DNA of 64,000 nt from an uncultured Gemmatimonadota bacterium (lineage in GTDB: Bacteria > Gemmatimonadota > Gemmatimonadetes > Gemmatimonadales > Gemmatimonadaceae). A model generated the notes under the pieces. It searched no databases. It was not told the origin of the DNA and saw only the letters and a list, made by a program, of their open reading frames with translations. A program made the position numbers and the translations under genes. Of the stretch, positions 1-13,512 are shown piece after piece (the first letter of the stretch is position 1; the number at the start of each line of letters is the position of its first letter). Location of the stretch: positions 1 through 64,000 of the forward strand of contig CADEFN010000008.1 in NCBI GenBank assembly GCA_902826615.1, in the 5' to 3' direction.

Positions 1-14
1 TGGGCGAGAGACCT

Positions 15-211
15 GCCTAACACGAGGGTGCGCTTGACCGGCGCGCCCAACGAGCGGCGGTCGGCACCGCGCCCGACGGTCGGCGGCTGGCGCCCCCCAG
101 TGGACGGTGCAATCTTGAGGGGCGGCGGTTTTGGGGCGCCAGCCGCTTCTATATGATTGGGCGCTCAGGGGCGGTGCTGGCGCGCCGGCAAGCGACCCTT
201 ACACGTTAGCC
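15..211 (+). other. attC site 1 (long)
   Basis: R'' is GCCTAAC at 15-21 and the putative crossover heptamer is GTTAGCC at 205-211, slightly off GTTRRRY. The arms pair well: GGCTGGCGCCCC near 80-95 matches GGGGCGCCAGCC near 132-145, and the outer CGCTTG/CCGGCGCGCC block is repeated in inverted form before the end. At 197 bp it is the longest site in the array. The cassette it belongs to lies mostly left of the window. Confidence 0.7.
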
Positions 212-233
212 GGACCCACAACCGATTGCCTCA

Positions 234-707
234 GTGCGCTTTCCCATCCTGTTCGCTGCGGCCGTGTTGCTCACTCTGACCTGCGCGCCACGTGAGGAGC
301 GGTCAGACGGCGCACCCGACCCAACACCCCGCATCGTGATCGATGGCCCCACCGTGGTTGGCTACTTCCCGCCCGCTCTCGATTCGGCAGCAGCGGAAGA
401 AAGCGGGTACGCTGAGGGACTCGCCCATGTGGGGTTCGCCTTGCAGGATGCGAAGGCCTGCACGGGCCTTGAATCTGCCGCGTTCCAGATGGTCGTGGAC
501 ACACAGATCTACGTAGTGCTAGCGGGGCGCACCGACATGGTACCGTTTCCGCGCACCGACGCGACCACCTTCGGCATCTACCTGTTTCGGTCCGATCGGC
601 CTCCACATTTGGTCACAGCGCTCGCGCCGAGTGCGCTCAATGCGGCCGTGCTCGAAACGCTGCCAGCGTACTTCGAGGGCGTCTCATGTGCCCCGCGCGA
701 GCCATGA
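234..707 (+). CDS. Cassette lipoprotein, function unknown
   Basis: A 157-residue protein with a GTG start 23 bases after the attC 1 core. Residues 1-17 form a short hydrophobic signal ending in a lipobox-like LTLTC, so the mature protein probably begins at Cys17 as a lipoprotein. The rest has no family I recognise; two further cysteines (about residues 76 and 152) could form a disulfide. Its stop overlaps the next start as ATGA, so the two genes of this cassette are probably translated together and may work together at the membrane. The two-gene layout suggests a functional unit captured as one cassette. Confidence 0.65.
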   Translation: MRFPILFAAAVLLTLTCAPREERSDGAPDPTPRIVIDGPTVVGYFPPALDSAAAEESGYAEGLAHVGFALQDAKACTGLESAAFQMVVDTQIYVVLAGRTDMVPFPRTDATTFGIYLFRSDRPPHLVTALAPSALNAAVLETLPAYFEGVSCAPREP

Positions 708-1159
708 GCGGTTCACCGCAACGAGGCGTTGGAGGCGTGCAGGTGCTCCGCCGTCGCTCCCTGGCCGCAGCGATCGCTCTTGCGGCGTTCGGCGCGGTGA
801 TCACAACGTGGCTAGGAACAGCACTCTTCGGGGCTCTCGTCGCGCCAGGCACCTTCGGCGGAGTGCTGAACATGTTCCCGTTCTATTTCCTCTTCGGCCT
901 GCCGATCGCGCTGTTCGTGCTTTACCTCTGCGCGCCGTTGTATGCGCACCTACGGGCGGCGGGCCGCGCCCCGCGCAGCGCGGTGGTCGGCTTCGGCGCC
1001 GCAGTGGGGTGCGCGACGGCGGTGATCGCCGGCTGGGTGTTCGGCGGCTTCGCCCCGGCGTGGCTCGCTGGCGTCGCGAGCGTCGGCGCAGCCGCCGGCG
1101 CCGTGGCCGGACTCACGCTCTACAGTGTCCACATTCCCGCGGTGCGGCCGACCGAGTGA
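704..1159 (+). CDS. Cassette membrane protein, function unknown
   Basis: A 151-residue integral membrane protein with about four hydrophobic segments, rich in Ala and Gly. I place the start at the ATG that overlaps the upstream stop (ATGA); an upstream start at 686 would add six residues. The frame ends 22 bases before attC 2, the usual tight spacing of cassette genes. No conserved catalytic motif is seen. It may be a partner of the upstream lipoprotein, for instance as an immunity or envelope pair, but that is only suggested by coupling. Confidence 0.65.
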   Translation: MSGSPQRGVGGVQVLRRRSLAAAIALAAFGAVITTWLGTALFGALVAPGTFGGVLNMFPFYFLFGLPIALFVLYLCAPLYAHLRAAGRAPRSAVVGFGAAVGCATAVIAGWVFGGFAPAWLAGVASVGAAAGAVAGLTLYSVHIPAVRPTE

Positions 1160-1181
1160 TGGCGCCTGCGCACCCGGGGCC

Positions 1182-1316
1182 GGCTAACAGAGCGTTGCAC
1201 TTGTCGGGCTGCTGGGGCTGGCCAACCCGCCCGGGCCGCGGTAGACTGTGGAAGAGGCGGCCCGGGCGGGTTGGCTTGTATTTAGATAGCCCGCAACTGA
1301 ACGCAAAACGTTATGC
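1182..1316 (+). other. attC site 2
   Basis: R'' GGCTAAC at 1182-1188 and R' GTTATGC at 1310-1316, an exact GTTRRRY core. Between them a strong inverted repeat (GGCCAACCCGCCCGGGCC with its near complement about 30 bases later) gives the cruciform expected of a folded attC. Length 135 bp. Confidence 0.85.
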
Positions 1317-1482
1317 CGTCCACGCGTCAGCCAATGCGTTGCTCCAGGTAGCCGCTCATGTGCCGTGGCCGATGGGGGCTCACGCAGTCGAGCATTAGGG
1401 ACACGACGCCGCGACGTTCGCCGACCCGAGATCCCGCCGTCGACGGGCTGGCGCGGGGTGCGCCAATGGCTTATAGTCCCGG

Positions 1483-1800
1483 ATGCGGTTCATTGAATCA
1501 CCCGTGTTCACGGCCAGCCTGCGCCGTCAGCTGGACGACGACGCGTACCGCGCGCTCCAGATTTCGCTCGCGTTGCGGCCGGAGCAGGGCGCGCTGATCC
1601 CCGGCGGCGGCGGGCTGCGCAAACTGCGATGGGGCGCCAAGGGGCGGGGCAAACGGGGCGGCGTGCGGGTGATTTACTACTGGGCGGTGGACGAGAACGT
1701 GTGCTACTTGGCCTACCTGTACGCCAAGAATGCCCAAGGCGACCTGACACCCACACAGCTCCGCGTGCTCGCGCGCGTGGTGCGGGAGGAGTTCAAATGA
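1483..1800 (+). CDS. RelE/HigB-type toxin
   Basis: A 105-residue protein of the RelE/ParE toxin superfamily, HigB-like branch. These are ribosome-dependent mRNA interferases held silent by a paired antitoxin. Family features are a short N-terminal helix pair, a central GGGGLRKLRW strand, the basic KGRGKRGGVRVIYYW segment and the YLAYLYAKN strand near residues 80-88. The toxin gene comes first and its stop overlaps the antitoxin start (ATGA), the higBA order. The pair fills cassette 2. Toxin-antitoxin modules are well known in chromosomal integrons, where they are thought to stabilise arrays. Confidence 0.85.
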   Translation: MRFIESPVFTASLRRQLDDDAYRALQISLALRPEQGALIPGGGGLRKLRWGAKGRGKRGGVRVIYYWAVDENVCYLAYLYAKNAQGDLTPTQLRVLARVVREEFK

Positions 1801-2108
1801 AGGCAGCGGCATTCGAGGAGTTGCTCACCAGCGTGCGGCAACTCGGGGCGATTCGGCGGGGCGAACGCAAACCGTCGCGCACCACCACCTTCAAGCCGGC
1901 GGACGTGAAAACCGTGCGCGCGGAACTCGGCCAGTCGCAGGCGGAGTTCGCCCTGATGATCGGGGTAAGCGTCGCCACGCTGCGGAACTGGGAGCAGGGG
2001 CGCCGGACGCCGGACGGGCCCGCGCTCGCGTTATTGCAGGTCGCCGCGCACAATCCCGAGGCCGTCGTCGCCGCGCTGCACCGGCCGCGGCGCCGCGGGG
2101 CGGCATAA
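1797..2108 (+). CDS. HTH antitoxin (HigA/NadS-like)
   Basis: A 103-residue antitoxin with a Cro/CI-type helix-turn-helix at about residues 38-75 (VRAELGQSQAEFALMIGVSV followed by TLRNWEQGRRTP). Such proteins bind the toxin through one end and repress their own operon through the HTH. The ATG overlaps the toxin stop, so this is the start chosen. The stop codon TAA lies inside the R'' heptamer of attC 3 (GCATAAC), so gene and recombination site abut. Partner: the toxin just upstream. Confidence 0.85.
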   Translation: MKAAAFEELLTSVRQLGAIRRGERKPSRTTTFKPADVKTVRAELGQSQAEFALMIGVSVATLRNWEQGRRTPDGPALALLQVAAHNPEAVVAALHRPRRRGAA

Positions 2109-2205
2109 CAAAGCGTTGCTGCCGTCGAGCGCCCCGTGTTCGGAAGCGTCCGCTGCGCGGACGCATTTCATTCGAGCGCTCGCGGCAGAACGCGAGTCGT
2201 TAGGC
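2103..2205 (+). other. attC site 3
   Basis: R'' GCATAAC at 2103-2109, shared with the antitoxin stop codon, and R' GTTAGGC at 2199-2205. The inner arms pair imperfectly, for example GCGAGCGC near the right end against GAGCGCCCC on the left. It is one of the shorter sites in the array (103 bp). Confidence 0.8.
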
Positions 2206-2297
2206 AGCACAGTTACGACCGAAGCAAGCTTCGACTCTCAGCACCACAACTGTTCACCCCGGCCACCGCGCAAGCACAGAAGAGGAGACCTGTAGCG

Positions 2298-2711
2298 ATG
2301 ACCTACGACGAGAAGATTGCGATCGTCCTGAGGGAGGACCTTCCAACTTGGCAGAAGCTCAACGTTGCCGCATTCTTGGCCAGTTCGGTCGCCATCAGGT
2401 TCCCCGAGACACATGGCGCCGAGTTCGTCAATGCTTCAGGCTCCGCCTACCTTCCCTTCGTCAAGCACCCAATGCTTGTCTATGCAGCGAACACACAGGA
2501 AGAAATCCAGCGAGCGTTCAAACGTGCCAAGGAGCGTGGCCTGAGCATCGGCATCTACACCGAACCGCTGTTCTCGACGAAGAACGAAGAAGAAAACCAC
2601 ATCGAGATCGCCAAGTGCACTGACGAAACCCACGTCTTGGTCGGCATCATCGTCTACGGCGAGAACAGGAAGGTCAACAAGGCACTTGATGGCTTGAAGT
2701 TTCATCAATAG
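2298..2711 (+). CDS. DUF2000-like cassette protein
   Basis: A 137-residue soluble protein. The ATG at 2298 follows a GGAGA ribosome binding site about 10 bases upstream; longer readings of the frame run through the attC and are rejected. The opening KIAIVLREDLPTWQKLNVAAF, the LPFVKHPMLVY segment and the GIYTEPLFSTKNEEEN block resemble DUF2000 proteins, which share a fold with archaeal-type peptidyl-tRNA hydrolase (Pth2) but have no settled function. It is the only gene of cassette 3. Family assignment is from memory of the pattern and is moderately sure. Confidence 0.65.
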   Translation: MTYDEKIAIVLREDLPTWQKLNVAAFLASSVAIRFPETHGAEFVNASGSAYLPFVKHPMLVYAANTQEEIQRAFKRAKERGLSIGIYTEPLFSTKNEEENHIEIAKCTDETHVLVGIIVYGENRKVNKALDGLKFHQ

Positions 2712-2775
2712 CGCGCTCTGCTTAGCCCGTGCTCGAGAGCCCATTCACCAGTCCACAGGCTCAGATGCAAGTGCT

Positions 2776-2903
2776 GCCTAACTGGTCGTTCAACCGGAGC
2801 GCCAACGGCAGGCCACCAAGCCCGGGCCGCAGGTACGCGGTACATTGTCTGCGGCCCGGGCTTGGCGTCCTGCCGCTGTCGCCCGGTTAACTCTGCGTTA
2901 GGC
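2776..2903 (+). other. attC site 4
   Basis: R'' GCCTAAC at 2776-2782 and R' GTTAGGC at 2897-2903 are perfect complements. The centre holds a near-perfect palindrome (CCAAGCCCGGGCCGCAG against CTGCGGCCCGGGCTTGG), and an outer arm GGCAGG matches CCTGCC. Length 128 bp. Confidence 0.85.
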
Positions 2904-3013
2904 AGTCTAGGAGACCATGGACGGTGCGCGATAGTTGAGCTTGGCGTGCCGGGCGGGGACGACCTCAGCAGTCCCAGAGTGACGCCGGTGGCTTATGTGA
3001 GGGTCTACCCGGC

Positions 3014-3619
3014 ATGACTGTCCTCCGCGGACAACTCCTGTTGGTGGTTGGGCTCGCCCTTTCGACGGCCGGGGCCCAAGACACGGTGGCAGTCCGCGAA
3101 GGCGATGTGCTCCGGATCCTCCGGGCTCCAGCGATGCTCCCCGCCGGGGAGGCCCGAGTCCGACGGCTGACCGCTGACTCGGTCTGGTTGGGAGTGCGCC
3201 CCTACGGCGAGACGTTCGGCTTCGCGGCGCGCGAGGTGACGCCGGTGGAGGTCCGGCGCCCTCGCAGCGGTGTCTGGCGCCGTCGCTTGCTGTGGACCGG
3301 CGTGAGCGTGGGCCTGGGGGCTGGTCTCGGCGCGCTGGTTGTCCACCAAACGCGGTGTCGCTCGGGTCCGGTCGAGCCCGGAGTGATAGACTTGTCCTGT
3401 GACACCCCGGAGCCCTCGATCCGCCTTGGAGTGGCCGTGGGGGCGGGCGTCGGCGCGGTACTCGGCGCCATCTCGCACCTCGCGTGGGAGCGCCCGAAGT
3501 GGCTGCCGGGGGCTCTCCCCGCGGGCGCGCTGCAAGGGCGACCGAACCGCACGGTGCCCTCGGCGTCGCGAGACGATAGGACAAGCGGCCCGAAAGCCGC
3601 GGCAGGTACGCGGGAGTAG
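3014..3619 (+). CDS. Cassette secreted/membrane protein with glycine-rich segments
   Basis: A 201-residue protein. Residues 1-21 look like a cleavable signal peptide ending in AGA-Q. A small beta-rich region with R-x-L-R motifs follows, then two glycine-rich hydrophobic segments (about residues 93-113 and 138-156) resembling glycine-zipper membrane spans. Between them two cysteines lie 22 residues apart. The C-terminal 40 residues are low complexity. No family recognised. A long antisense frame over the same DNA is a compositional shadow. Sole gene of cassette 4, ending 22 bases before attC 5. Confidence 0.6.
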   Translation: MTVLRGQLLLVVGLALSTAGAQDTVAVREGDVLRILRAPAMLPAGEARVRRLTADSVWLGVRPYGETFGFAAREVTPVEVRRPRSGVWRRRLLWTGVSVGLGAGLGALVVHQTRCRSGPVEPGVIDLSCDTPEPSIRLGVAVGAGVGAVLGAISHLAWERPKWLPGALPAGALQGRPNRTVPSASRDDRTSGPKAAAGTRE

Positions 3620-3640
3620 TCAGCCCCGCCGCGAGGCGCT

Positions 3641-3774
3641 GCCTAACAGCGTGTAGCTCGCGTCGGGCCGTCGGGCTGGCCGCCGCACCCGGCGGCTGAT
3701 AGTGTAAGGCAAGGTCCGCCGCCGGGTGCGGCGGCTCTATTGGATGGCCCGCGCGAGAACACGGGTCGTTATGC
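3641..3774 (+). other. attC site 5
   Basis: R'' GCCTAAC at 3641-3647 and R' GTTATGC at 3768-3774. The central arms GCCGCCGCACCCGGCGG and CCGCCGGGTGCGGCGGC are nearly perfect complements around an AT-richer loop. Length 134 bp. Confidence 0.85.
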
Positions 3775-3798
3775 GGCCAACCAAGTCTCGACGTGCTT

Positions 3799-4473
3799 AT
3801 GACCAAGTCACGAGCCAAGACTGTGCAGCCACCCCTCGGAGAGTTAGTAGAGCTCTTCCTGCGAGAGGCGTCCGCCGCCCTTCACCCGTGGGCGTTGGCG
3901 CACGGGGGCACGTGCGCAACAAAGCTCACGCATGCCAACGCTCAAGGACGCTTTGAGGCGACGACACCTGATGCACTGCACGGCTTCTTCTTGGCGGAGG
4001 TGGAGTTTCGCACAACCTCCCTGATCGGAGAGCTTAGCTACGGTGACCGCGAGCTGTTCATCAACACTGTGGTCAGTCCGTTCGGGCGACCCCTTCGTCA
4101 CGGGCTCTGGGAGTGGGCCGACGCAGTGGGGGAACACACGATCCCGCCTCGCGAAACGCAGTGGGTGACTCAAGCGGACCGGGTGAGCGACATCGTACGC
4201 GGGATGGCCGGTGCTCTAACCAAGCTTGCTGACGTCATTGCTACTGCAGAGGACACCGTCGTCGCCCGGATGACTGCGGCTCGTGCGAAAGTGCGCGCGG
4301 AACAGGATGCGCTTTGGCGAGAGGCCGAGCACAGCGGAACGGTGCGCCTGGCTGATGCTGCGTTCAGAGCACGCGATTGGCCTCGCGTAGTCGAGCTGTT
4401 GACATCGGTGCACGACCTGCTGTCCCCCGCCGAAATGGCCAAGCTCCGATACGCGGAAGCGCAGCTCAGGTGA
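3799..4473 (+). CDS. Cassette protein of unknown function
   Basis: A 224-residue soluble protein with an ATG start 25 bases after the attC 5 core; a GTG six bases earlier is an alternative. The N-terminal half looks globular (LGELVELFLREASAALHPWA, then FFLAEVEFRTTSLIGELSYGDREL). Residues 130-190 are helical and charged and may form a coiled coil. The C-terminus (FRARDWPRVVELLTSVHDLL and after) resembles a single TPR-like helix pair. No family recognised and no transmembrane segment. Sole gene of cassette 5. Confidence 0.6.
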   Translation: MTKSRAKTVQPPLGELVELFLREASAALHPWALAHGGTCATKLTHANAQGRFEATTPDALHGFFLAEVEFRTTSLIGELSYGDRELFINTVVSPFGRPLRHGLWEWADAVGEHTIPPRETQWVTQADRVSDIVRGMAGALTKLADVIATAEDTVVARMTAARAKVRAEQDALWREAEHSGTVRLADAAFRARDWPRVVELLTSVHDLLSPAEMAKLRYAEAQLR

Positions 4474-4564
4474 CGCTGCGCGTCCGTGCAACGCCAGCAA
4501 GCACCACGGACGCACGCAGATGTTTTGCTGTCGAGTTGGTGCGCCAGCGTTGGGCGCCAAGGCC

Positions 4565-4700
4565 GCATAACCCGTGGCTGCACTGGACCGGGCCGAGGGG
4601 GTGGCCGACCCGCCCGGCGCTCCGTAGGATATCAGAGGCCCGCGCCGGGCGGGTCGGCTTTGTTCAGCTGGCCCGGCAAGTGAGCCACAAGTCGTTATGC
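4565..4700 (+). other. attC site 6
   Basis: R'' GCATAAC at 4565-4571 and R' GTTATGC at 4694-4700 are exact complements. Next inward, TGGCT and CACT pair with AGCCA and AGTG, leaving the unpaired bases typical of attC bottom-strand folding. The core is GGCCGACCCGCCCGGCGC with its complement. This is the apparent parent type of attC 7. Confidence 0.87.
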
Positions 4701-4778
4701 CGACGTCGTGCAGGAGCTCGCGATGGAATGGACTCGCGGTTCTCAGCGGGCTGCCCTACAGAGTGACGGGAATGACGC

Positions 4779-5261
4779 ATGGCCATTATCGGCGGGCTTA
4801 ACGAGTTCACACGACGTGCCGGGGATTTTCGTGATCTGCACGTCGATGCCGTGCGGCTGACGCGGGCGCACGATGGAGTGAGCGCCGACCTTGAGCTGGT
4901 GATGCCGCCCGGGGTCGGCAAGCCGTGGCCGGAACGCAGTGCAGACACCGAGACTGTCTTCGTGTTCCGATTCTCGCGAGTGAGCTACTTCCAGTGGGGC
5001 GGACTCCAAGGCACAGATATCGTTGAGTCAGTCATTGACGAGCTTGTGACTGCAATAGAGCGCCTTCCTGGGGACCGAGGCGAATGCCTCAGCGTGCGCA
5101 TCGACTTACGGAACGTGGAGATGGATATGCGAGTCTGGTGCTCCTCGATGGATCTGATCGCATGCGTGGAACGTCCGGCGGCCGAGGAGCGCCGGACGCT
5201 TGGCCGTTCGCAGGCGGACGAGCCACCCCCTGAGGGTCCCCCCGCGAATCCCTCCAGTTGA
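4779..5261 (+). CDS. Cassette protein, paralogue A, 3' end altered by IS
   Basis: A 160-residue unknown protein, clearly paralogous to the protein at 6531-6947. Shared blocks include F-D-ER/RR-A-DFRDL-VDAVRLT, DTETVFVFRFS-V-YF-WGG, a V-ID-V-IE segment, L-RGECL-V, and VERPAAEERR. No fold or function is recognised; there is no signal or membrane span. The IS left end begins at 5231, so the last ten codons and the stop come from the IS and the natural C-terminus is lost or replaced. The core domain, ending near residue 140, is complete. Confidence 0.65.
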   Translation: MAIIGGLNEFTRRAGDFRDLHVDAVRLTRAHDGVSADLELVMPPGVGKPWPERSADTETVFVFRFSRVSYFQWGGLQGTDIVESVIDELVTAIERLPGDRGECLSVRIDLRNVEMDMRVWCSSMDLIACVERPAAEERRTLGRSQADEPPPEGPPANPSS

Positions 5262-5316
5262 AGGTTGACAGTCGGGCCTCCACCGGTCGTTTATGACGAC
5301 CACCAAGGAGTTCCCG

Positions 5317-5583
5317 ATGCGCAAGTCCCGATTCACCACCGAGCAGATCATCGGTATTCTGCAGGAGCATGCCGCCGGCGCCGTCGTGGCCGATCTGCTC
5401 CGTCGCCACAACATCTCGCGGCCGACGCTCTATGCCTGGAAGAAGCAGTACGGGAATCTTCAGGTCAGTGACGCCAAGCGCCTGAAGCTGCTCGAAGACG
5501 AGAATCGGCGGCTCAAGCGACTGGTGGCCGACCAGGCGCTCAATCTGCAGGTGCTCAAGGACGTGCTGGGAAACGGGCGATGA
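5317..5583 (+). CDS. IS3-family transposase OrfA
   Basis: An 88-residue DNA-binding subunit. It starts MRKSRFTTEQIIGIL, a helix-turn-helix follows (AAGAVVADLLRRHNISRPTLYAWKK across residues 17-43), and then a leucine-zipper-like helix (RLKLLEDENRRLKRLVADQAL). This matches OrfA of the IS407 subgroup. The ATG at 5317 is preferred over an in-frame ATG at 5293 because family members start MRKSRF and GGAG lies a few bases upstream. Its TGA overlaps OrfB ATG as ATGA, so OrfB is probably made by reinitiation or frameshifting. Confidence 0.88.
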   Translation: MRKSRFTTEQIIGILQEHAAGAVVADLLRRHNISRPTLYAWKKQYGNLQVSDAKRLKLLEDENRRLKRLVADQALNLQVLKDVLGNGR

Positions 5584-6413
5584 CCACGGCGATGCGCCGC
5601 GCCGTGGTCGCGGAGGTTCAGGGGCGCTGTGCCGTCAGCGAGCGCACCACCTGCCGGTGGTTAGGGTTCGATCGCAGCGTCATGCGGTACACGCCCCAGC
5701 GTCCGGTCGCGGATGCGCCCCTGCGAGCGCGCTTGCGCACGCTGGCCGCGGCATACCCGCGCTGGGGAGTGCCGCGGCTCCATTGGAAGCTGACGCGCGA
5801 CGCCACCGTAGTGAATTACAAGCGTGTCGAGCGCCTCTATCGCCTCGAAGGACTCGCCGTGCGTCGCCGGACGCGCAAACGGTTGGCCGTCCCTCGAGTG
5901 CCGCGGCCCGCGGCCGAGCGACCGAATGACACGTGGGGCATCGACTTCGTGAGCGATCAGCTGGCGTCCGGCCGTCGCATTCGCTGCTGCACCGTCGTAG
6001 ATGCGTGCACGCGGGAGAGCGTGTGCATCACGGTCGATCACAGCCTGGCGAGCGACGCCGTCATCACCGCGTTAGAGCAGGTCATCACGGCGCGCGGCCA
6101 ACCGGTGCGCCTGTCCTTGGACAATGGGCCGGAGTTCCGGAGTATCGCCTTCGACGCCTGGGCGGCCGCTCGCGGCATCACCCTGGCCTTCATCCAACCC
6201 GGCAAGCCGAGTCAGAACGCGCACATCGAATCCTTCAACGGTCGCTTCCGGGACGAGTGCCTGAACCAGCATTCCTTTCTGTCGCTGCTCGACGCCCGGT
6301 ACCGCATTGAGCGGTGGCGCCAGTCCTACAACGAGGAGCGCCCCCACGAGGCCTGCGCCCCCCTCACCCCCAGCGAGTACGCTTGTACCTTTCTTCCCTC
6401 ACCTCCGGTCTGA
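5580..6413 (+). CDS. IS3-family transposase OrfB (DDE integrase core)
   Basis: A 277-residue catalytic subunit with the rve integrase core. The DDE triad is visible as WGIDFVSD (first Asp, about residue 120), DNGPEF (second Asp, about residue 181) and HIESFNGRFRDEC (Glu, about residue 218). An N-terminal HTH_21 region (YPRWGVPRLHWKL) precedes it, and the C-terminus carries the usual YNEERPHEACAPLTPSEYA. Length and motifs are complete, so the element may be active. Confidence 0.92.
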   Translation: MTTAMRRAVVAEVQGRCAVSERTTCRWLGFDRSVMRYTPQRPVADAPLRARLRTLAAAYPRWGVPRLHWKLTRDATVVNYKRVERLYRLEGLAVRRRTRKRLAVPRVPRPAAERPNDTWGIDFVSDQLASGRRIRCCTVVDACTRESVCITVDHSLASDAVITALEQVITARGQPVRLSLDNGPEFRSIAFDAWAAARGITLAFIQPGKPSQNAHIESFNGRFRDECLNQHSFLSLLDARYRIERWRQSYNEERPHEACAPLTPSEYACTFLPSPPV

Positions 6414-6530
6414 CTGTATGCCTAACACTGGATGAAGAACGGGGGGACCCTCACACCCACGTCGGCAGCTGCGAGCCACCGTTGCCTTACACAACCCCCG
6501 ACGGGAGTCGCCAAGACCCAAGTCACGGGC

Positions 6531-6947
6531 ATGGAGGAGTTCGATGAACGCGCTGACGACTTCCGGGACTTGTACGTCGATGCAGTCCGTCTGACTCAGG
6601 CCCGGAATGGCCTGTACGCCGAGATCGACATCGTGATGCTTCCTTGGGTCCGTCCCAAGCACCCCGACCAGCACGCAGACAGCGAGACAGTCTTCGTCTT
6701 CCGATTCTCTCAGGTCAACTACTTCGATTGGGGGGGGGATGAAGGCGTCCCTTTGGTCGATACCCCGATCGATGAGGTGCGGATCGAGAGTGCGGAACTC
6801 CCTCTGGAGCGCGGAGAGTGTCTGGACGTGGAAATCCTTTCGCGGAGTATGGAGGCCGATGTGAGCGTGCGGTGTTTGTCCATGGCGATGATCGCGGTGG
6901 TAGAGCGACCGGTGGCCAAGGATCGGCGCAGGCCCTCGCCATTGTGA
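6531..6947 (+). CDS. Cassette protein, paralogue B
   Basis: A 138-residue unknown protein, paralogue of the one at 4779-5261 with the same conserved blocks (DDFRDLYVDAVRLT, DSETVFVFRFSQVNYFDWGG, RGECLDVEI, VVERPVAKDRR). I choose the ATG at 6531 because conservation with paralogue A begins there. The frame is open upstream to an ATG inside the IS end (6432), and a longer product or an ancestral fusion is possible. The stop lies 40 bases before attC 7. No function is recognised. Confidence 0.6.
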   Translation: MEEFDERADDFRDLYVDAVRLTQARNGLYAEIDIVMLPWVRPKHPDQHADSETVFVFRFSQVNYFDWGGDEGVPLVDTPIDEVRIESAELPLERGECLDVEILSRSMEADVSVRCLSMAMIAVVERPVAKDRRRPSPL

Positions 6948-6987
6948 GGCGATGACCCACCGCCGACATAAGTTAGGTCCTTCCGCG

Positions 6988-7070
6988 GCCTAACCCCCGG
7001 CTGCACTTGACCGGGCTTGGGGCGGGTCGGCTTTGTTTACGTGCCCGGCAAGTAAGCCGAAACGCTATGC
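6988..7070 (+). other. attC site 7, shortened and core-mutated
   Basis: R'' GCCTAAC at 6988-6994, and GCTATGC at 7064-7070 where other sites have GTTATGC. Both flanks align with attC 6: CGGCTGCACTTGACCGGGC on the left, and GGCGGGTCGGCTTTGTT plus GTGCCCGGCAAGTAAGCC on the right. About 40-50 bases of the central stem are missing. The changed crossover triplet (GTT to GCT) predicts an inactive site. It marks the distal end of the array. Confidence 0.7.
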
Positions 7071-7139
7071 AGTCTTCTTCTTGAGAGCCGTTGGATGTCG
7101 CGTCGTATCAGCTGGCGGAGCGTGCTAGCCACGCTCGCA

Positions 7140-8147
7140 CTAGTCCCAACGACCGCTCAGACGTACTTCGCACAACTCCGAGGGACGCGCCGGATCGTCG
7201 GCGTCGATCACCACCCAGAGTCGGCTTGCATCGTCGCTCGATAGCGCGAGTCCCTCCACCTTGTCGCGCACTACACGGCCACGCGCATCGGCAAGCCGAA
7301 CGTATCGTGGCTCTGTGGCATCGGTCATGACCCCGATGACAGAGCCCGCCACCTCGCCATCGGTTGACGCGTCCTCCGACGCTTCAGCGCTCGCGGTGAA
7401 GTAGATACGTCCCCCGCGCTCGGCGGCGTCGGTGAAGCCGAGGGCAATGCCATCGATTTCGCCAAGGGTGTATTGGACGATGTCGGTGGGTCTGGGCATC
7501 CTCGCCTCGTCGGGGTCGTCGAGCCAGCGCAGGAGGTCGTGAAGTGAGAGATCGCAGGTCGCATCGAGTGGCCGCGCTCCGTCACGTGCCTTTCCGTTGC
7601 CTCGACCAAAGATGCGCAGCCGATCTCCGATCGACACGACGCCTTCGATGTTCATGTCACTACCGGCAAACTCACGAACCGTCTCGAGATCTTCATAAAG
7701 CGCCGTGGCGTCCGTGAGATTCACGCGTGGACTTCGGCTGGACCAGCGGTCAACGCGCAGCACCTGGCGGCGCCGCCGCGTCGATCCCGAGCCAAAGGCC
7801 AGCAGCACCGGTCCGTGTGGCCCAGCCACCGAACAGCATGCCTCGAGGTCGAGCTTGAACTTCTTGTTGCCACGCCCGTCGTCGAATTGCCGGGCGTCAT
7901 CCTTGCCTGCCGGGAGCGTGACCGATTCCACTGCTCCCGATTCCGGATCCACAAGTGCAACGAAGTTGGCGTCGTCCTGGACGAGCGCCAGCCGTTCTCC
8001 TATCCACGCCATGCTCGACCCTGCCCGGACGTGGGTTGGGCGGTCGAGCGATGCGTCACCTCCCCCGGCATAAAACAGCGCTCGCCGCGAGATGATTCGC
8101 GCGTCGAGCGCTGAGTCTGCTGTTGCCCTTCTGACTTCTGTGCTCAC
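7140..8147 (-). CDS. Predicted beta-propeller protein
   Basis: A 335-residue protein without an obvious signal peptide. Repeated blade-like segments are visible (SSMAWIGERLALVQDD, SVAGPHGPVLLAFGSGST, MNIEGVVSIGDRLRIFGRG, GRIYFTASAEAS, VEGLALSSDDASRLWVVIDADDP). The NIEG-V...GDRL and KVEGLALS...LWVV-D-DDP pattern resembles phytase/esterase-like propellers often annotated as hypothetical. No catalytic assignment is made. It is the first ordinary chromosomal gene after the array, and its 3' end lies 69 bases from attC 7. Confidence 0.6.
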   Translation of the reverse strand: MSTEVRRATADSALDARIISRRALFYAGGGDASLDRPTHVRAGSSMAWIGERLALVQDDANFVALVDPESGAVESVTLPAGKDDARQFDDGRGNKKFKLDLEACCSVAGPHGPVLLAFGSGSTRRRRQVLRVDRWSSRSPRVNLTDATALYEDLETVREFAGSDMNIEGVVSIGDRLRIFGRGNGKARDGARPLDATCDLSLHDLLRWLDDPDEARMPRPTDIVQYTLGEIDGIALGFTDAAERGGRIYFTASAEASEDASTDGEVAGSVIGVMTDATEPRYVRLADARGRVVRDKVEGLALSSDDASRLWVVIDADDPARPSELCEVRLSGRWD

Positions 8148-8175
8148 GCTCCCTCGTTGCTCCCGTGTACCAACG

Positions 8176-9807
8176 CTACTGCGCGACGGGTTTCACCGTC
8201 GGGTACTTGATCCCCAGCTGCTCCAGGTACGTCTTGTACTTCGTGGGATCGTAGTAGAACTTCGCCATGGCCGGCCGGTACTTTGCCATGATGTCCTCGT
8301 TGAGCCAGATGGGGGGACCATCGTTAGGTCCGAGGAAGCTCTTGTACTTGGTGATTTTCGTCTGCTCGTTGCTGAAGTAGTCCCAGGCGTCGGCCACGAG
8401 CTTTGGTGTCAGCAGGATGTCGAGCAGGGTGAGGGCCTGCACCTTGGCCCCGGCCACGCCACCCTTGTGGGCAATCGGCGTGGCCATCGAGATCCCATTG
8501 GCCCAGTTGTGCCCTGGCAGCCCCGGAATGTTTGACGGATACCGCAGCGTGACCGTCGGCACGTTCCATGACACGTCTCCGATGTCATCGGAGCCACCAC
8601 CTAACGATCGGCTCTGATCGACCGGTCCTTCGAGGTTGCCGGGCAGGTCCACGAGTCCCGTTTCGGGGAAGTTCAATTCACGCTGGATGCCCTTGGCGAG
8701 GGCCTGATCGTTGGCGTCCCACTTGGGATTCCCCACTCTCTTGATGTTGTCATACGTTGCCGTCGCGATGGCCTTGTTGAAGTGACCACTCCACGCCGAG
8801 CCGAGGATCATGACAGTATCGAGCTGCGTGTCGGTCATCATCGCGGCGCCGCGCGCAATGCGTTTGGCCGCCTCGAAGTTGGACATCACGCGGTCATAGT
8901 CTCGCTCGCGAATGTAGAACCAGATGCTGGCCGTTTGGGGCACCACGTTCGGCTGGTCGCCGCCATCCTTGATCACGTAGTGCGAACGCTGCGCCGGCTC
9001 GAGGTGCTCGCGTTTGTACTCCCAGCCCTGACCCATCAGCATCACGGCGTCGAGTGCTGACTTGCCGCGCCATGGCGCGCCTGCCGCGTGGGCCGTCTGC
9101 CCCTTGAACTTGAAGAGCGCTGTCACGATGGCATTGGAACCCGACTGTCCCCACGACACACCGAGGTTGTTGCCCACGTGGGTGAACATTGCGACATCCA
9201 CGTCCTTGAAGACACCCGCTCGCACCAGGTGGGCCTTGCCGGCCACCTGCTCTTCGGCGACGCCGGGCCAGATCTTGAGCGTGCCCTGAATCTTGTCGCG
9301 CTCCATGATCTCCTTCACCACGAGCGCGGCGGCGATGTTCACGGCCTGACCCGAGTTGTGTCCTTCGCCGTGTCCCGGTGCACCAGGCACCATCGCCTCG
9401 AAGTACCCGAATGCCGGCTTCTGGCTCGACTGCGGGATACCGTCGATGTCCGAGCCTAACGCGATGACCGGTTTGCCCGAGCCCCAGGTTGCGACAAACG
9501 CGGTGGGCATTCCGGCCACACCACGCTCGACACGGAACCCGTTCTTTTCCAGCAATCCCGTGAGGTATTTGGACGTCTCGAACTCCTGCATGCCGAGTTC
9601 GCCGAACGAGTAGACCTGGTCGATGATTTCCTGAATCATCTTGGCGCGCTCATCAATCTTGATGAGTGCCTCGGCCTTGAGTTTCTCGAGCCGGGGATCG
9701 GGTTTTGGGGCCGCAGCCGACTTGGCTTGAGCCAGGGTGCCTGTGGGGAGGGCAAGAACGGCCATGGTGAGGGCCAGAACAGCGCGAAACGGTCGGGGCA
9801 TGGGCAT
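8176..9807 (-). CDS. Secreted M20-family amidohydrolase (AbgB-like), copy 1
   Basis: A 543-residue metallohydrolase resembling p-aminobenzoyl-glutamate hydrolase subunit B. The start at 9807 gives a signal peptide (MPMPRPFRAVLALTMAVLAL up to LAQA), so it is exported; a longer frame to 9888 adds a non-conserved extension. Motifs include LGSDIDGIP, GAPGHGEGHNSGQAVN, WPGVAEEQ with the catalytic Glu pair, KFKGQTAHAAGAPWRGKSALDAV (dimerisation domain) and PGLPGHNW near the C-terminus. AbgB has HGCGHN where this protein has HGEGHN, so a metal ligand appears to be Glu instead of Cys. Probable role: cleaving amide or peptide-like substrates in the periplasm. A close paralogue lies at 11793-13394. Confidence 0.85.
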   Translation of the reverse strand: MPMPRPFRAVLALTMAVLALPTGTLAQAKSAAAPKPDPRLEKLKAEALIKIDERAKMIQEIIDQVYSFGELGMQEFETSKYLTGLLEKNGFRVERGVAGMPTAFVATWGSGKPVIALGSDIDGIPQSSQKPAFGYFEAMVPGAPGHGEGHNSGQAVNIAAALVVKEIMERDKIQGTLKIWPGVAEEQVAGKAHLVRAGVFKDVDVAMFTHVGNNLGVSWGQSGSNAIVTALFKFKGQTAHAAGAPWRGKSALDAVMLMGQGWEYKREHLEPAQRSHYVIKDGGDQPNVVPQTASIWFYIRERDYDRVMSNFEAAKRIARGAAMMTDTQLDTVMILGSAWSGHFNKAIATATYDNIKRVGNPKWDANDQALAKGIQRELNFPETGLVDLPGNLEGPVDQSRSLGGGSDDIGDVSWNVPTVTLRYPSNIPGLPGHNWANGISMATPIAHKGGVAGAKVQALTLLDILLTPKLVADAWDYFSNEQTKITKYKSFLGPNDGPPIWLNEDIMAKYRPAMAKFYYDPTKYKTYLEQLGIKYPTVKPVAQ

Positions 9808-10004
9808 GGTGTGCGAAGATTCGGCGATGGGTACACCCGCTACGGAGCGGGCGGCCGCAACGTTGGCGCGCGCAACGTCTCGGGGCAAGGCGACACGACC
9901 CGCCCACCCGGCGGGTTAGGACTCGATTAAGCCGGGCGCGCACACATTGCGCCCCCCGGATCCGGTCCCGAGAGTGTAGCGCGTCCAAACCCGGGAGAGC
10001 AGGC

Positions 10005-11792: not shown

Positions 11793-13394
11793 CTACTGGG
11801 CGACCGGTTTCAGCGTCGGGTACTTGATGCCGAGCTGTTCCAGGTAGGTCCGGTACTTGGAGGGATCGTAGTAGAACTTCCGCATTTCGGGGCGGTACCG
11901 TGCCATGATGTCAGCGTTGAGCCAGACGGGCGGACCATCGTTAGGCCCGAGGAACGACTTGTACTTGGTCACCCGGGTCTGGTCGTCGGTGAAGTACTTC
12001 CATGCCGATGCCACGTGGGTCGGGGTCACCATGAGATCCAGCAGGGTGAGCGCCTGCACCTTGGCGCCGGCCAGGGCTCCCTTGTGGGCGATCGGGGTGG
12101 CCATGGCAATCGTGTTGGCCCAGTTGTGGCCGGGGAGTCCGGGGATGTTGGAGGGGTAGTTGAGTGTCACCGTCGGCACATTCCAGGAGACGTCGCCGAT
12201 GTCGTCCGATCCCCCGAAGACCACGCCGTCCGGCGCGGGACCCTGCAGGTCCTTGCTGGTCTGGGTCAGCAGTCCGGTTTCGGGGAATGACAGCTCTCGC
12301 TGCAGTGCTTTGGCCAATCCCTGATCGTCGGCGTCCCACACCGGGAGCCCGACACGCTGGATGTTGGCATGTGTTACTTCGGCGATCGGCTTGTTGAAGT
12401 GGATGTCCCACGCCGAGCCGAGCATAAGCACGGTGTCGAGCTGCGTGTCGGTCATCATGGCAGCGCCGCGTGCGACACGCTTGGCGGTCTCGAAGTTGCG
12501 CATCACATTTTCGTAATTGCGCTCGCGGAAGTAGTACCAGATGCTGGCCGTTTGTGGCACCACGTTCGGCTGATCGCCGCCGTCCTTGATGACGTAGTGT
12601 GATCGCTGGACCGGCTCGAGGTGTTCGCGCCGGTACTCCCAGCCCTGCGCCATGAGCATGACGGCGTCGAGTGCCGACTTGCCACGCCATGGAGCACCGG
12701 CCGCGTGGGCCGTCTGGCCTTTGAAGCGGAACTCGGCCGACACCATGGCCAGGGCTCCCGAGCCACCCCACGACACCTGGAGGTTGTTCCCCACGTGAGT
12801 GAAGAGCGCGGCGTCGACGTCCTTGAACACGCCGGCGCGCACGAGATGTGCCTTGCCTGCCAGCTGTTCTTCAGCCACACCGGGCCAGAGCATCAGGGTG
12901 CCCGGGATCTTCTCCCGCTCCATGATTTCCTTGACGCTGATGGCGGCGACGATGTTCACCGCCTGCCCCGAGTTGTGCCCTTCGCCATGCCCCGGCGCTC
13001 CGGTGACCATCGCTTCGCGGAAGCCGTAGGCGGGTTTCTGGTTGGCCTGGGGAATGCCGTCGATATCGGAGCCTAACGAGATGACGGGCTTGCCGCTGCC
13101 CCATTTCGCAATCCAGGCGGTGGGCATGCCGGCGGTGCCGCGCTCGACGGTGAAGCCGTGTTGCTCGAGGATGCCCGTGAGGTATTTCGAGGTCTCGACC
13201 TCCTGGAACCCCAGCTCGCCAAATGAGAAGAGCATGTCGACGATTTCCTGCACCATCTTCGCACGCCCTTCGACCTTGGCGAGCACCTCGGTCTTGAACT
13301 TCTCGAGGCGTGGATCGGCGGCCACCCGGGGCTGAGCAATCGCCGGGGTGGCGAGGAGAGAGAGACAGAGGGCGAAACGCAGCGAACGGCGCAT
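11793..13394 (-). CDS. Secreted M20-family amidohydrolase (AbgB-like), copy 2
   Basis: A 533-residue paralogue of the protein at 8176-9807, nearly collinear with it. It has the same signal peptide pattern (MRRSLRFALCLSLLATPAIA-Q), LGSDIDGIP, GAPGHGEGHNSGQAVN, WPGVAEEQ, QTAHAAGAPWRGKSALDAV and the ending GIKYPTLKPVAQ. It too carries Glu in place of the AbgB Cys. The start at 13394 was chosen for the signal peptide. Two copies about 2 kb apart suggest duplication with possible division of substrate range. Confidence 0.85.
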   Translation of the reverse strand: MRRSLRFALCLSLLATPAIAQPRVAADPRLEKFKTEVLAKVEGRAKMVQEIVDMLFSFGELGFQEVETSKYLTGILEQHGFTVERGTAGMPTAWIAKWGSGKPVISLGSDIDGIPQANQKPAYGFREAMVTGAPGHGEGHNSGQAVNIVAAISVKEIMEREKIPGTLMLWPGVAEEQLAGKAHLVRAGVFKDVDAALFTHVGNNLQVSWGGSGALAMVSAEFRFKGQTAHAAGAPWRGKSALDAVMLMAQGWEYRREHLEPVQRSHYVIKDGGDQPNVVPQTASIWYYFRERNYENVMRNFETAKRVARGAAMMTDTQLDTVLMLGSAWDIHFNKPIAEVTHANIQRVGLPVWDADDQGLAKALQRELSFPETGLLTQTSKDLQGPAPDGVVFGGSDDIGDVSWNVPTVTLNYPSNIPGLPGHNWANTIAMATPIAHKGALAGAKVQALTLLDLMVTPTHVASAWKYFTDDQTRVTKYKSFLGPNDGPPVWLNADIMARYRPEMRKFYYDPSKYRTYLEQLGIKYPTLKPVAQ

Positions 13395-13512
13395 GTGGGG
13401 CGGGGCAGAGGGGTCGGCGTGCGGCGACATAAGTAGCCCCACGGCAAGAGAGTCGGTAGCCCCATTTTCACCGCACTTCGTCGCGTCTGCCCTCTACCAT
13501 CTACCCTCTACC

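Follow-up and report, generated by a model that had tools for sequence, protein, structure and literature searches.

How did two paralogous genes near the end of an integron cassette array come to lie on either side of an insertion sequence (IS), with a single attC site, beyond the second gene, for both? The initial annotation of this locus had raised two answers, namely one two-domain gene split by the element or two cassettes whose attC was damaged. The window, the whole stretch of DNA that we analysed, is the initial 64 kb of C8, one of 98 contigs that make up a genome of 5.9 Mb, and its first 7 kb form a cassette array of same-strand ORFs with attC-like sites between them. The relevant part of this array contains the following features.

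4565..4700, forward strand: attC of the cassette preceding gene A, with R'' GCATAAC at 4565 and R' GTTATGC at 4694.

4779..5261, forward strand: gene A, an ORF of 160 aa whose last nine codons and stop lie inside the IS.

5196..5230, forward strand: 3' tail of A, whose homology with the end of B and the bases past B's stop (6930-6964) reaches the edge of the IS.

5231..6453, forward strand: IS3-family insertion sequence of 1223 bp, whose 14 terminal bases all match and whose 4-bp flanks are unequal.

5293..5583, forward strand: orfA of the IS, 96 aa, with HTH_Tnp_1 (PF01527, E 3.4e-20).

5580..6413, forward strand: orfB of the IS, a 277-aa transposase in -1 frame overlap with orfA, also matching rve and rve_3.

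6454..6530, forward strand: remainder before gene B, with no recognisable attC arm; approximately 6483-6511 weakly matches A's leader.

6531..6947, forward strand: gene B, an ORF of 138 aa from the ATG at 6531.

6988..7070, forward strand: attC of cassette B, short, with R' GCTATGC (49.3 bits and E 3.8e-10 with our attC model R1, which had this site in its training set).

The surroundings resemble the cassettes of a chromosomal integron, in that small one-strand units stand in a row, most are followed by attC-like sites, and the genome carries integrase genes; they differ in that no separate attC can be recognised for A, so that A, the IS and B now have one in common. The attC-like sites and the integrase genes are located as follows.

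R'' at 15, 1182, 2103, 2776, 3641, 4565 and 6988: the seven attC-like sites of the window, placed by their motifs.

G000:C2:944383-945321 and G000:C16:10602-11408: integron integrase genes, the former near a contig end and both on contigs other than C8.

Both integrase genes exceed the curated cut-off of TIGR02249 (401.7 and 314.7 bits against 265). The array after the C2 gene is interrupted by the contig end just past the first attC detected, and since C2 ends 47 nt past an attC and C8 starts 14 nt ahead of one, the arrays are broken by assembly gaps. R1 was trained on six of the seven window sites and four sites from contigs C2 and C16. It retrieves two of the seven window sites at E < 1e-9 and part of a third (4627-4700 of the attC at 4565..4700, E 0.72, a site with a perfect 17-bp inverted repeat at 4604-4620/4642-4658), and without filters the two well-found sites drop to 32.2 and 22.0 bits. 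Because so few window sites are recovered and the scores are low, R1 must be regarded as poor on longer attC sites. Across the genome it matches at least 20 places on many contigs, a lower bound given that sites which R1 itself detects on C2 and C16 are absent from that list. The cassette of gene A starts where the attC at 4565..4700 ends. B is followed immediately on its 3' side by the attC at 6988, which has R'' and R' motifs in addition to its R1 match and is the last attC detected in the array; by eye it resembles the attC at 4565-4700 without one hairpin arm. Other genes come after it, for example DUF6929 at 7140-8147 on the minus strand, and two similar long minus-strand ORFs at 8176-9888 and 11793-13442 (570 and 549 aa) appear by eye to be paralogous peptidases or amidohydrolases. 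Within the array, a cassette at 1483-2108 carries two genes, a RelE-like toxin and a NadS-type HTH antitoxin. A promoter scan of 4470-7150 found none, and an Rfam scan of 1-10000 returned nothing at the gathering score.

The earlier claim that the proteins on the two sides of the IS share the same blocks is fully supported, as A and B are paralogues with 72 of 136 residues identical (53%, E 3e-49). Over 132 codons their nucleotide identity is 0.616, with dN 0.38 and dS 1.55, and from these rates the split appears to be old, with both copies having long evolved as proteins under constraint. An alternative start for B, the ATG at 6432 within the IS, would give a protein of 171 aa.

The limits of the IS were likewise borne out. 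Its inverted repeats are perfect over 14 bp, and relatives that align over its full length (positions 1-1223, 69-72% identity) occur in three genomes of the family, G087, G126 and G235 (loci L016, L018 and L019); the 14-base end TGAGGGTCCCCCCG is identical in two of them and present as a variant in the third. The two overlapping ORFs, the score of orfB against the IS3 transposase model NF033516 (227.6 bits, cut-off 160) and the inverted repeats with TG...CA ends place the element in the IS3 family, while its unequal 4-bp flanks set it apart. A 4-bp target-site duplication is a trait of the IS407 subgroup, and the initial annotation had assumed one here. In fact, the flanks differ (CCCC against CACC), and they are likewise unequal in each of the three full-length relatives (CTAG/CCAG, TTTG/CGAC and GCTG/GCCC), with the proviso that old duplications may have mutated. 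A match around CGAGCCACC between the two flanks was discarded, being equalled in 147 of 1000 shuffles. The right end of the IS contains an attC-like 7-mer, GCCTAAC at 6420-6426 (GTTAGGC on the other strand); because a related IS in G029 (L023) has the near-identical stretch CCAGTGTTAGGCA in its end, we consider it to be IS sequence rather than part of an attC. GTTAGGC also lies beside the IS in L019, and the idea that the element seeks out attC sites was set aside, as R1, whose sensitivity is limited, finds no attC in L016-L024 at E <= 1. Elsewhere in the source genome, a left-end fragment of a related IS lies right at a contig end (G000:C3:719718-720052, 80% identical across 288 positions), and after it comes another short piece, which matches IS positions 213-265.

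Could A and B be the halves of a single two-domain gene that the IS split, in the manner of a polyimmunity protein? Proteins with multiple immunity domains do exist, according to PMC3482391, and the reading frames do join as the initial annotation had noted: without the IS and 4 bp a single frame of 313 codons results, while taking out the IS alone leads to a stop at codon 182. This joining is nonetheless near chance as evidence, because 3090 of 5000 shuffled linkers are open as well, which, multiplied by a 1-in-3 chance of phase, gives approximately 1 in 5. The composition of the linker is also unlike that of either gene. In B's frame its G+C at codon positions 1, 2 and 3 is 0.64, 0.72 and 0.68, as compared to 0.69, 0.45 and 0.71 for A, 0.69, 0.37 and 0.74 for B, and 0.68, 0.76 and 0.48 for A's leader; the second-position value (18 of 25) has a probability of 0.0004 if B's rate applies and 0.006 with that of A. 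Inter-domain linkers are often alanine- and proline-rich, which weakens this argument, and A's own tail also speaks against it with 7 of 11 at the second position. Taken with the unequal flanks and a weak trace of leader-like bases before B, these results make a split two-domain gene quite improbable. A polyimmunity protein has at least two immunity domains in one polypeptide, whereas A and B are at present two separate ORFs, and they probably never were one polypeptide.

The junction itself is better explained by two cassettes. The tail of A is homologous to that of B right up to the IS edge: when extension is anchored at the last shared residues it reaches a score of 18 that none of 1000 mononucleotide shuffles equals, and in an unanchored search 27 of 1000 dinucleotide shuffles do as well (5191-5230). 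Given that B's attC starts at 6988 and the homology ends at 6964, A breaks off approximately 23 nt ahead of where its own attC would be expected to start. Indeed, no attC is recognisable between the two genes. R1 finds none in 5196-6530 with default filters at E <= 1, and with filters off at E <= 10 its 37 places in 1-8200 include none in 5196-5230 or 6454-6530 and reach at most 8.5 bits inside the IS. A is thus left with no recognisable attC of its own, with the qualification that R1 fails to detect several of the window's attC sites and a divergent remnant could escape it.

One part of the two-cassette proposal did not hold, which was that the linker is like the right arm of attC 6. Its score of 15.5 is equalled by 420 of 1000 dinucleotide shuffles, and a weight matrix for right arms does no better (258 of 2000), with its best site falling outside the segment that had been named. 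In leave-one-out controls of this matrix on six attC arms, four were recovered clearly (0 to 2 of 2000), with weaker results for 4565 (5 of 2000), 6988 (107 of 2000) and, outside the model, 2776 (284 of 2000). Since some genuine arms score poorly in these controls, a divergent or damaged arm could escape it. Excluding the IS, A's tail and the ATG of B are 77 nt apart. Bases in this stretch match A's leader back to approximately 27 nt before A's ATG, at levels reached by 6, 17 and 25 of 1000 shuffles with three different anchors; homology between the two leaders is only suggestive, because it depends on the anchor and falls to chance when unanchored (412 of 1000).

We therefore favor, with a probability of roughly 0.62, the reading that A and B are two once-separate cassettes and that an intervening attC was lost together with an IS event. 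Two cassettes with paralogous genes would have occupied the far end of the array in a chromosomal integron. An element of the IS3 family would then have come to the 3' end of A, 4 nt ahead of the position matching the in-frame TAA after B, and A's attC, perhaps along with part of B's leader, would have been removed. A deletion beside the newly inserted IS may account for the loss. Alternatively, copies of the IS may have stood both downstream of A and upstream of B and recombined with each other, excising what lay between. Both routes predict unmatched IS flanks, and the data fit either. The flanks are unmatched in all four full-length copies of the element, a point that limits this reading as it may only reflect age. 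The outcome would be two ORFs with B's attC in common, able to move only as one unit that includes the IS.

Two further origins involve a single cassette from the start. In one, leader and gene were duplicated in tandem within one cassette, an attC never stood between the copies, and the IS later hit the junction. Such a duplication yields the observed order of A's tail and B's leader without any deletion, and the homology indeed spans the tail and perhaps the leader. It would, however, have to be old given the dS of 1.55, it requires that the IS landed on the junction itself, and it needs later mutation to account for the unequal flanks, so that we judge it unlikely. In the other, the IS simply entered between the two ORFs of a two-gene cassette, with no deletion. 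Two-ORF cassettes are noted in PMC8618304, which also counts Gemmatimonadota among the integron-bearing phyla, and the toxin-antitoxin pair in this array is an example. A and B, however, are paralogues rather than partners, and A's stop codon comes from the IS; this is the least probable of the origins considered. On our best reading, the locus is an ordinary IS scar in the tail of an integron, explicable by known processes.

Homologues of A and B proved to be scarce, and a version free of the IS, which would represent the empty site, was found in none of the genomes, plasmids, phages and viral contigs searched. The source genome holds no third copy at E <= 0.01. Searches of 395 genomes of the phylum with B and of 394 genomes of the class with an A/B profile, both at E <= 0.001, returned the source genome only, and the profile at E <= 0.01 against 179 genomes of the family, samples that overlap with one another, added two further genomes with weak matches (E 0.008 and 0.01). 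There was no match in plasmids (B only), phages (A only), viral contigs (B alone and the A/B profile) or genome contigs (the profile and A alone), records among which those close to the source genome may be left out.

What, then, might A and B do? Pfam, searched up to E 10, returned nothing for either protein other than a match between A and a viral matrix protein that is below threshold (E 0.098). In NCBIfam there is a single match, again for A and short of the threshold (E 0.045), and a sequence search of solved structures with the A/B profile gave no match up to E 10. An AlphaFold2 model of A built from the two-sequence alignment reached pLDDT 78.9 and pTM 0.73 (the five models had pLDDT 78.9, 72.2, 32.5, 28.5 and 28.3). 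Its best match is PIM7(Bc), the immunity protein of polymorphic toxin PT7, in 8owu, both by Foldseek (E 1.4e-3, probability 1.00) and by VIA (Z 10.3, rmsd 3.0 over 103 residues, 12% identity), followed in VIA by 5v77 at Z 8.8 and others at 4.5 and lower. Because models with no clear match typically reach a best Z of 7 to 8, we take this likeness as a good lead rather than proof. For B the model is of lower quality (pLDDT 73.8, pTM 0.65); Foldseek again places 8owu first (E 6.1e-3, probability 0.98, TM 0.38 or less), and in VIA that structure scores Z 3.6, tied with unrelated chains, which does not confirm the result for A. As judged from the predicted fold of A alone, the product is likely to be an immunity protein that would bind and block a rival's toxin; a common fold is in itself no proof of common function.

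A second immunity family, Imm50 (PF15594), shows a weak colinear profile match when A and B are compared to four Imm50 members from the family (hhalign P 0.071, probability 0.8%), whereas neither A nor B matches it in Pfam up to E 10, short of the curated cut-off. A sequence search with Imm50 returned no solved structure, so that PIM7 is not tied to this family. Searches of 118 genomes of the family and of 395 genomes of the phylum each detected Imm50 in 4 genomes and yielded an identical set of five genes. An attC match lies close by on the gene strand within the locus of all five, which are not independent (L056 and L057 are closely similar copies from a single genus, and L058 shares a contig with L060). 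As a control we used nine SMI1_KNR4 genes from 116 genomes, of which one is in an array (L070), one has a single attC match (L069) and seven have none. Fisher's test gives 0.003 when one control case is counted and 0.021 when both are, values uncorrected for related copies and for the unequal sensitivity of R1. The first 16 kb of G169:C35 (L072, 1-16000) contain 22 R1 attC matches at E <= 0.1, two Imm50 genes and the SMI1_KNR4 gene of L070. Among 20 chosen ORFs of this stretch, a set that leaves out the second Imm50 gene, four exceed a Pfam cut-off (Imm50, SMI1_KNR4, a CopG antitoxin and a ParE toxin). By analogy, one array can hold two cassettes of one immunity family, as the preferred reading supposes for A and B.

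Integrons are known to collect resistance genes and toxin-antitoxin genes. Immunity genes have been grouped in other settings: PMC3482391, in the part of its text examined, describes polyimmunity loci and polyimmunity proteins and does not use the word integron. The present locus resembles such loci, as described there, in having several adjacent immunity genes without their toxin, and differs in that there are two genes only, their immunity role is putative and they lie in an integron array. PMC5361080 likens the orphan immunity gene arrays of Vibrio cholerae to integrons and states that there is so far no evidence for integrase action on them. Our literature search found no paper joining integrons with Imm50 or with polyimmunity, and none for PIM7 combined with further terms.

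More broadly, integrons of this bacterial family might serve as movable stores of orphan immunity genes, with Imm50 cassettes on the one hand and A and B, as members of a new sequence family that shares this kind of fold, on the other; the IS would then have tied two such genes together as a single unit, a transitional stage toward a polyimmunity locus or protein. We hold this picture as a whole to be doubtful at present. In any case, the removal of an intervening attC through an IS event offers a plausible way for cassettes that could each move independently to become permanently linked. Should A and B be immunity proteins, this would also suggest that the integrons of the group gather defences against the toxins of neighbours, and it is the possible storage of immunity genes in these integrons that is the part worth following.
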